43,658 nt of DNA, taken from NCBI GenBank assembly GCA_945877515.1, contig CAMCSE010000013.1, positions 1-43,658 on the forward strand. Direction: 5' to 3'. Source of the DNA: an uncultured Clostridia bacterium. GTDB taxonomy: Bacteria > Bacillota > Clostridia > Oscillospirales > Oscillospiraceae. The translations under genes and the position numbers were made by a program. The notes under the pieces were generated by a model that did no database searches, was not told where the DNA came from, and was given only the letters and a program-made list of their open reading frames with translations. This document shows positions 40,691-43,658 of this stretch, in pieces; position 1 is the first letter of the stretch; the number at the start of each line of letters is the position of its first letter.

Positions 40691-43159
40691 TTACTCTTTG
40701 GTCAAGTGCCGCATGGCAGCCTTCAGCATCAGCTTTTTGGTGCCAACATTGTCGAAGGCTACTTCGATCAGCGCGTCGCCGCCCATGGAGCGCACCGACA
40801 GCACCAGTCCGTGGCCAAAGGCGGTATGCGTCACACTCTCGCCGGCTTTCAGCTCCAGCAAAGGCCCGCTCTCCCGCTTTAGCGCCGCAGCCGCCGCATA
40901 CGCAGGCTTCTTCGCCGCAGGGCGGGCTGCCGCTACGCCATCAGACGAGTACGATGTCACCGCGCTGCGGCCTGCGTAGCCTCCGCCAAAGCCGCCAAAG
41001 CCGCCGTCATCGTTATAATCGTCGCTCCAGTGGCGCTCGGCACGAGGCTCCGGTTTGCCGATCCATTGGCTGTTTTCCTCCGGGATCTCCTCCAGAAATC
41101 GGGAGGGCATAGTCGGCGTAGTGCGGCCGAACAGCATGCGCTGTCTGGCATGTGTCATGGTAAGATGTTCTCTGGCACGGGTCATGGCCACATAGCACAG
41201 CCGCCGCTCCTCTTCCATTTCCTCCTCATCGCCCATGGCACGGTTGCCGGGGAACAGGCCATCCTCCATGCCCACCACAAATACCTCCGGGAATTCCAGC
41301 CCCTTGGCACTGTGCATGGTCATCAGCACCACGCAGTTTTCACTCTCCTCAGCGCTGTCCAGATCGGTATACAGTGCCACTTCATCCAGAAAACCTGACA
41401 GAGAGGGATCGTCCGGCTGGTTGTCAAGAAAAGCATGGATGCTGGAGGCCAGCTCCTGCACGTTTTCCAAACGTCCCCGACTCTCCATATCATTCTTTTC
41501 CGTCAGCATCGCAATGTAGCCGCTGCGGTTGCAGACAAATTCGTAAAACTCCGGCAAGGGCAATTCCCCTGCTTTAGCCCGCATTTCTTCTATCAATGCT
41601 GTGAAGGTCTCCAGCCTTACAGCCGCCGATTTCAGTTCCGGATAGGCCGAGGCATGGCAAAAGATCTCATATAAGGGCACTCCCTGCTCCGTGGCAAGGA
41701 TCTGGGCTTTATCCACTGTAGCCGTGCCGATCTTGCGGGAGGGCACATTGACGATGCGCCGCAGGCGGAGATCATCGGCAGGGTTATTGATGACGCACAG
41801 ATACGCCAGCATATCCTTGATCTCCGCCCGGTCGAAGAACTTCATACCGCCGATGATCTTATAAGGGACGCCGCTGCGCTTGAAAGCATATTCCAGCGCG
41901 TTGGATTGGGCGTTCATACGGTAGAGCACCGCGTGATCACGCCAGTTCATGCCGCGGTTGTAGTTCATCATGATCTGACCCACCACGAAATTGGCCTCGT
42001 CGCCCTCGTTGAAATTGGTCTTGATGAGCACTTTGTCTCCGGTGCCGTTGCGCGTCCACAGCGTCTTGCCCTTTCGGCCCTGGTTATGGCGGATGACGGC
42101 GTTGGCGGCATCCAGAATGTTCTGGGTGGAACGGTAGTTCTGCTCCAGGCGAATCGTGCGCACACCCCGATACTGCCTTTCAAAGCTGAGGATGTTCTCG
42201 ATATTGGCGCCCCGGAACCGATAGATGCTCTGATCGTCATCGCCCACCACGCAGATGTTGCGATAGCCTCCCGCCAGCAGACTGGTCAACAGGTATTGCA
42301 GATGGTTGGTGTCCTGATACTCGTCCACCAGCACATATCGGAACTTCCGCTGATAGTACTCCCGCACCTCAGGGCAGCTTTGCAGCAGCTGCACAGTCAA
42401 TAAAATGATATCGTCAAAGTCCAGTGCGTTGGCATCGCGCAGTTTCTTTGCGTAAAGCGAATACACTTTACTAATACGCGTCTTGCGCCAATCGTTGTTC
42501 TTTTCCCAATACGCACGAAAATCCTCCGGCAGCAGCATCTCGTCCTTTGCCCGGGAAATAACCGATACGATCTCCCGAACCGGGAAAGTCTTTTCATCCA
42601 GATCCAGTTCCTTAAGACAATCTTTGACCACACGTTTGCTGTCATCCGTATCATAGATGGTAAAGTCTTTGGAATAGCCGATCTGCTCGATATCCCGCCG
42701 CAGGATGCGGACACAGGCAGAGTGGAACGTAGACGCCCATACGTCCCGGGCCTCCTCCCCCAGCATCCGCTCCAAACGCTCCTTCAGTTCATTGGCTGCC
42801 TTATTGGTAAAGGTAATGGCCAGAACTTCCCACGGACGGGCAGGCTCTACCGCACACAGATACTGCATCAGGGGACGCTGCTCCGGTGTGGGGTGGGCCG
42901 CATATTCCTCCAGAAACGCCACCTCATCCTCTGACATAGGAATAGGGATCTCATCTGTGTCGCTGCCGCGGCCATACCGCAGCAGATTGGCCACCCGGTG
43001 AATCAGCACCGTAGTTTTTCCGCTGCCCGCTCCGGCCAGCAGCAACAGCGGTCCTTCCGTGGCCATCACGCCCTGCCGCTGCATGTCATTCAATTGGGCG
43101 TAATCCACAGCGATCGCCTGCCGCCGGGCATGGATAAATCTCTGCTCCAGTTCCGTCAT
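40691..43159 (-). CDS. pcrA: UvrD/PcrA-type ATP-dependent DNA helicase
   Basis: LLLLAGAGSGKTTVLIHRVANLL, AITFTNKAANELKERL, VDEYQDTNHLQY, VVGDDDQSIYRFRGA, LMTMHSAKGLEFPEVFVVG. Confidence 0.97.
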   Translation of the reverse strand: MTELEQRFIHARRQAIAVDYAQLNDMQRQGVMATEGPLLLLAGAGSGKTTVLIHRVANLLRYGRGSDTDEIPIPMSEDEVAFLEEYAAHPTPEQRPLMQYLCAVEPARPWEVLAITFTNKAANELKERLERMLGEEARDVWASTFHSACVRILRRDIEQIGYSKDFTIYDTDDSKRVVKDCLKELDLDEKTFPVREIVSVISRAKDEMLLPEDFRAYWEKNNDWRKTRISKVYSLYAKKLRDANALDFDDIILLTVQLLQSCPEVREYYQRKFRYVLVDEYQDTNHLQYLLTSLLAGGYRNICVVGDDDQSIYRFRGANIENILSFERQYRGVRTIRLEQNYRSTQNILDAANAVIRHNQGRKGKTLWTRNGTGDKVLIKTNFNEGDEANFVVGQIMMNYNRGMNWRDHAVLYRMNAQSNALEYAFKRSGVPYKIIGGMKFFDRAEIKDMLAYLCVINNPADDLRLRRIVNVPSRKIGTATVDKAQILATEQGVPLYEIFCHASAYPELKSAAVRLETFTALIEEMRAKAGELPLPEFYEFVCNRSGYIAMLTEKNDMESRGRLENVQELASSIHAFLDNQPDDPSLSGFLDEVALYTDLDSAEESENCVVLMTMHSAKGLEFPEVFVVGMEDGLFPGNRAMGDEEEMEEERRLCYVAMTRAREHLTMTHARQRMLFGRTTPTMPSRFLEEIPEENSQWIGKPEPRAERHWSDDYNDDGGFGGFGGGYAGRSAVTSYSSDGVAAARPAAKKPAYAAAAALKRESGPLLELKAGESVTHTAFGHGLVLSVRSMGGDALIEVAFDNVGTKKLMLKAAMRHLTKE

Positions 43160-43225: not shown

Positions 43226-43264
43226 CAGCAACCGTAAATCTTGGAAATTTTGTTCGATTTTCTC

Positions 43265-43293
43265 TTGACAGAAACGTTTGTTCGATGTATAAT
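43265..43293 (+). promoter_or_regulatory. Sigma-A promoter with embedded LexA (SOS) box
   Basis: ttgaca(43265-43270) - 17 nt - tataat(43288-43293); spacer begins with gaaacgtttgttcg (43271-43284), reverse complement CGAACAAACGTTTC = consensus CGAACRNRYGTTYC. Confidence 0.88.
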
Positions 43294-43329
43294 GCGTATC
43301 GAACAAAGATTCTATTGGAGGTATCTGTT

Positions 43330-43452
43330 ATGGCTACTATTGGGTATGTAATTGTAATTCTGGGAGCACTGTCCGTTTCCGTGAACCTGATGCATCTGAT
43401 TGACCGGCTGGATCGGCCGCGCCGCAGTCAGCGCCGCCGTAATGCTGCCTGA
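43330..43452 (+). CDS. Small single-TM cationic-tail protein, 40 aa, unknown family
   Basis: MATIGYVIVILGALSVSVNLMHLIDRLDRPRRSQRRRNAA; SD ggagg 8 nt upstream; directly downstream of the SOS promoter. Confidence 0.75.
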   Translation: MATIGYVIVILGALSVSVNLMHLIDRLDRPRRSQRRRNAA

Positions 43453-43455
43453 GTC

Positions 43456-43658
43456 ATGGATCTTCTGGAAAAGCTGACCATTCTGTCGGATGCCGCCAAA
43501 TACGACGCCGCCTGTACATCCAGCGGGGTCAAGCGTAAGTTTCAGCCCGGGAAGATCGGCAACACTTCCTCTTCCATCGCAGGCTGCTGTCACAGCTTTT
43601 CCGCCGACGGACGCTGCATCACGCTGTTGAAGGTATTGATGACCAACAGCTGCGTTTA
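43456..43658 (+). CDS. Putative DNA modification/repair radical SAM protein, N-terminal part (truncated by window end)
   Basis: MDLLEKLTILSDAAKYDAACTSSGVKRKFQPGKIGNTSSSIAGCCHSFSADGRCITLLKVLMTNSCV resembles the N-terminus of the radical SAM family found beside UDG-like proteins; the CxxxCxxC motif lies beyond the window. Confidence 0.8.
   Translation, partial: MDLLEKLTILSDAAKYDAACTSSGVKRKFQPGKIGNTSSSIAGCCHSFSADGRCITLLKVLMTNSCV

Follow-up and report, generated by a model that had tools for sequence, protein, structure and literature searches.

What does a 40-codon open reading frame do at the head of a DNA-repair operon? The window analyzed here, a stretch of 43,658 nucleotides, is the end of contig C13 in a genome of 1.65 Mb that is 80.6% complete, and it carries a gene for a 40-amino-acid single-pass membrane peptide on the forward strand at positions 43330 to 43452, a call that draws on the ORF reading, its orthologues, their pN/pS ratio and a predicted helix. 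The small ORF (smORF) starts with ATG, comprises 40 codons and encodes MATIGYVIVILGALSVSVNLMHLIDRLDRPRRSQRRRNAA. Its TGA stop (43450 to 43452) is followed by GTC, and the next gene begins with ATG at 43456, leaving a gap of 3 nt. An earlier note, made from the DNA letters alone, had described the ORF as unannotated and equipped with a good Shine-Dalgarno (SD) sequence. Both descriptions hold: GGAGG (43317 to 43321, forward strand; anti-SD duplex, -10.6 kcal/mol) stands 8 nt before the ATG of what proved to be a conserved ORF, and no curated family model covers the peptide, since Pfam and NCBIfam gave no match at a usable E value for any family member and PHROGs gave none for the peptides tried.

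The smORF heads an operon that continues with a radical SAM gene and a DUF4130 gene. The 5' part of the radical SAM gene (43456 to 43658, forward strand; TIGR03916, rSAM_link_UDG), which has no SD of its own, runs to the end of the window and continues on the minus strand of contig C19. The last 55 bases of the window (43604 to 43658) are identical to C19:32130-32184 (minus strand), an assembly overlap, and the reading frame is unbroken across the join of the two contigs between which the gene is split. The protein joined from the two pieces scores 581 bits against TIGR03916 (cut-off, 343.5), and a DUF4130 gene (E = 6e-44) lies 3' of it; with an enzyme above the family cut-off and DUF4130 adjoining, this is an rSAM_link_UDG operon (TIGR03916/DUF4130). 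The divergent UvrD/PcrA-type helicase gene (40691 to 43159, minus strand; likely ATG at 43159), named by inspection of its translation, is a neighbor outside the smORF operon.

A sigma-A promoter of perfect consensus, TTGACA-17-TATAAT (43265 to 43293, forward strand; score, 12/12), precedes the smORF and is kept in most orthologous loci. Three LexA-like boxes, none assigned to a strand, accompany it: box 1 (GGAAATTTTGTTCG, 43243 to 43256) upstream of the -35 hexamer, box 2 (GAAACGTTTGTTCG, 43271 to 43284) within the promoter spacer, and box 3 (CGAACAAAGATTCT, 43300 to 43313) downstream of the -10 hexamer. Each is two mismatches from CGAAC-N4-GTTCG, and the full set of three recurs, with hardly any change in spacing, in 32 of 36 orthologous loci. 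The genome encodes LexA, and the lexA promoter of the genus bears [CA]GAACAAATGTTGC or a close variant. A scan for the canonical GAAC-N4-GTTCG was uninformative in the window's own genome, with 4 sites against 13 in the reversed control; none stands in front of the smORF, because all three of its boxes are imperfect. The placement of the smORF as the first ORF after a LexA-controlled promoter, as the earlier note had it, is thus upheld at the sequence level by the promoter and three conserved boxes, and LexA would be expected to act at all three. A 9/12 promoter-like site was also seen on the opposite strand in the window.

Conservation, which had been named beforehand as a test able to refute the ORF, was examined in a genus set of 32 genomes (loci L020 and L027 were read manually). 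The radical SAM gene is present in 28 of the 32, and in 28 of those 28 the peptide lies directly before it. The proposed neighborhood search upstream of radical SAM genes likewise recovered the peptide, both within the genus of the window and in four others (g6, g36, g70 and g72), and it was not found in the remaining sampled loci of the family. The named relatives that carry it are Oscillospiraceae, including metagenome-assembled genomes (MAGs) labeled Dysosmobacter and Oscillibacter. The sequences align without gaps across the helix and the conserved juxtamembrane motif that follows it, LMRLIDxLDxP, and Gly-12 is invariant. Over eleven disjoint close pairs, pN was 0.094 and pS 0.389, a ratio of 0.24 (Fisher p = 8e-31); pooling every genus pair, among which synonymous sites are near saturation, gave 0.53. 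By region, the pooled ratio was 0.46 for the transmembrane segment and motif versus 0.81 for the Arg-rich tail. The smORF is a genuine gene under strong purifying selection. The 36 orthologues are 35 to 63 amino acids long, and nearly all copies in the family measure 29 to 43. In an Oscillibacter MAG (L136), a 32-residue orthologue stops before the basic tail, at a place where the record contains N bases.

The single hydrophobic helix and Arg-rich tail first read from the translation were recovered as well, the helix by prediction and the basic tail across the orthologues. AlphaFold2 gave one helix over residues 2 to 28 (mean pLDDT, 81) and low values for the tail, and net charge was 0 at the N-terminal end and +2 to +7 at the C-terminal end in 36 of 36 loci. 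Because the N-terminal end is uncharged and the tail basic, the positive-inside rule predicts an N-out, C-in orientation. The peptide would reside in the membrane, crossing it once with its Arg-rich C-terminal end in the cytoplasm.

In each of the 36 loci examined that carry the peptide, the radical SAM start lies 1 to 21 nt past the peptide stop and has no SD. Mean anti-SD duplex energy in these 36 loci was -1.0 kcal/mol at the radical SAM start versus -10.7 at the peptide start, and in 56 family loci that lack the peptide, most of which do have an SD at the radical SAM start, the mean there was -8.7. When one best-of-candidates rule was applied to both groups, median energy at the enzyme start was -1.6 with the peptide (n = 36) and -9.8 without it (n = 56; Mann-Whitney p = 2e-15, a value that overstates independence, as the loci are related). 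The two genes vary in frame relative to each other, which rules out a split fusion of peptide and enzyme. Since the radical SAM gene has no SD of its own where the peptide is present, the enzyme is probably translationally coupled to the peptide, presumably by re-initiation.

Profile searches in the genus and the family revealed further copies of the peptide away from the radical SAM gene. Members of a solitary branch, 29 to 33 amino acids long and with strong SDs, have no closely coupled gene after them, and the profile of this branch matched the SOS-branch profile with an hhalign probability of 97.6% (E = 4e-12). The incompleteness of the window's own genome limits any reading of a missing solitary copy there. 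At five loci from several species (L376, L379, L383, L384 and L385), the solitary peptide lies just upstream of an oxoamine synthase-like gene, named by inspection, and a TTGACA/TATAAT promoter-like site often separates the two. Homologues also occur in prophage-like elements (L078:4542-4969, L079:4352-4809 and L082:3655-4124), two in genome G100 and one in G102, each directly after a small gene. The small gene from G100 that was scanned (L079) matched phage families in PHROGs, and in G100 there are tape-measure and integrase genes close by. Against the SOS-branch profile, the G100 copies scored 36 and 35 bits and the G102 copy 23 bits; the best shuffled score was 16.5 bits when the mobile-element copies were shuffled 20,000 times with segments preserved, and 22.1 bits in a mixed shuffle set. 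Chance similarity was rejected for the two G100 copies, whose scores compare with the maximum of 16.5, and the G102 copy is the weakest of the three. Membership of a further G100 sequence, on contig C31 (11.5 bits), is uncertain. Scanning of viral contigs, in which the positive control worked, yielded no family member through the longest prophage copy, the motif IEWLDTP or the surroundings of Gp157-like genes.

Many solitary copies are preceded by the element TGTCC-N8-GGAC-N11-TANNNT, whose TANNNT is -10-like, and in several of these genomes recA is preceded by it too, identically spaced. In the 32 genus genomes it had 41 matches versus 1 in the reversed control. Assignment was partly by eye, with some matches at contig ends left unassigned; it placed 14 before recA (for example, L238, L239 and L236), 12 before solitary peptides (L304, L315 and L316) and at least 5 before the gene for a conserved 74-amino-acid protein (L399), with one match each before a Cas3 gene (L410) and a cytosine methyltransferase gene and one upstream of a Cas5-type gene. 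The 74-residue protein (MNKFFDYLE...), which follows the element in L399, L392, L387, L401 and L402, had no match in Pfam or NCBIfam. The recA of the window's genome has neither a LexA box nor the element. The element marks what is apparently a second, recA-containing regulon, tied to DNA damage through recA only. We tentatively suggest, at somewhat less than even confidence, that one hitherto undescribed family of membrane peptides induced by damage acts in two DNA-damage regulons within a single genus: the LexA copy would lead a repair operon to which it is coupled, and the other would belong to a second, LexA-independent regulon, marked by this element, whose members include recA and, in individual genomes, CRISPR cas genes or a DNA methyltransferase gene.

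What the peptide itself would do is suggested by these relatives. That paralogues occur where the enzyme does not speaks for a function of the peptide's own, and damage control, selection, a contact-like motif and stand-alone relatives together make a membrane target of its own most likely. The reading that we prefer, to which we give about even chances, is that the smORF opens a LexA-repressed repair operon and that its product is both a damage-induced single-pass membrane brake and a leader ORF, the solitary paralogue being likewise a brake. Upon DNA damage, LexA would leave the three boxes, ribosomes would load at the smORF GGAGG, and those finishing the smORF would re-initiate 1 to 21 nt downstream on the SD-less radical SAM gene, so that enzyme and peptide would be made together. 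From the membrane, the peptide would most likely slow the divisome or membrane energetics after damage, and the solitary paralogue, under the element common with recA, would probably do the same job for a second regulator.

The brake function is proposed by analogy, and the closest working analogy is provided by Caulobacter, in which SidA, a LexA-controlled inner-membrane protein of 29 amino acids with a single transmembrane segment, and DidA, an SOS-independent single-transmembrane protein of 71 amino acids induced through a second damage pathway, both inhibit division (PMC4211646). The likeness lies in short length, a single transmembrane segment and damage-linked control, judged here from nucleotide sequence (three boxes, with lexA present), and in the occurrence within one organism of two damage-linked small membrane proteins of which only one is LexA controlled (PMC4211646). 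Unlike SidA and DidA, the two forms here are related by paralogy, and the LexA form stands ahead of a repair enzyme to which it is apparently coupled; no family model match connects them to the Caulobacter proteins. Inhibitors of the SidA/DidA type act by binding FtsW/FtsN. Against the brake reading stands the fact that no sequence match to known division inhibitors or toxins was found, and the lack of similarity to YneA-, SidA- or TisB-type proteins, remarked on in the earlier note, persisted when family models were searched.

The peptide also resembles YneA, SosA and ChiZ in its SOS control and in having one transmembrane segment near the N-terminal end. Those proteins have an extracellular C-terminal end, with LysM in YneA and ChiZ, and are commonly encoded beside lexA (PMC6851548, PMC13396833). 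The peptide here is predicted to be C-inside, the opposite topology to YneA and SosA; it lacks LysM (no Pfam match, and it is too short), and its gene lies beside pcrA on C13, whereas lexA is on C15. On these three grounds, membership in the YneA/SosA group was rejected. The divergent neighbor of lexA in the genus reads by inspection as secG.

A different membrane role, which we consider unlikely, is that of a depolarizing peptide akin to the Escherichia coli SOS-induced single-transmembrane toxins TisB and DinQ. Once made in the SOS response, it would insert, bring down the proton-motive force and hold back growth while repair proceeds. The size of the family members (down to the 29 to 33 residues of the solitary branch), the single helix and the LexA-type promoter, predicted here, all fit, and there is a precedent in DinQ, a LexA-controlled 27-amino-acid single-transmembrane peptide that depolarizes cells when overexpressed (PMC3567139). 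Models of TisB, DinQ and other toxins gave no match, which counts for little with a protein this short, and the SOS branch has a basic tail as well as the motif LMRLIDxLDxP conserved after the helix, which resembles a protein contact more than a generic pore. Toxins of the TisB/DinQ type need tight antisense control, of which the analysis of the locus gave no incidental sign; the smORF leads an operon and has a strong SD.

Less probable still is a membrane partner or anchor that would bring the radical SAM/DUF4130 repair enzymes to the membrane. The invariable adjacency in orthologous loci and the apparent translational coupling speak for it, but in most loci of the family the enzyme occurs with no peptide, many of these loci showing a LexA-like box immediately 5' of the enzyme gene, and no enzyme lies beside the solitary or prophage-like copies. 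The suggestion of the earlier note that the peptide might be a partner of the radical SAM enzyme is weakened to that extent, with the apparent coupling still linking the two genes. A leader ORF that would merely set the translation rate of the enzyme and yield a functionless product is very improbable: it would account for the missing enzyme SD wherever the smORF is present, but the amino acid sequence is under purifying selection, more so in the membrane segment and motif than in the tail, and solitary paralogues exist with no coupled gene to lead.

The preferred reading, a membrane brake that also leads a repair operon, bears on a gene pair already known. In the passages of PMC8565304 consulted, LexA control is reported for a COG1573-COG4277 UDG/radical SAM pair in other phyla, and the operon downstream of the smORF is of the same kind. 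The membrane peptide that leads it here is absent from the description of the pair in those passages, the literature covered being open access.

Small membrane proteins induced by damage have little sequence in common, which makes them difficult to find. The family reported here is traceable by its Gly-12, the motif LMRLIDxLDxP, the LexA boxes and a promoter element common with recA. It lies outside current models and provides a candidate SOS checkpoint protein of gut Oscillospiraceae. With it come a repair enzyme whose translation seems to need a leading peptide and what looks like a second promoter system for recA in the same bacteria.
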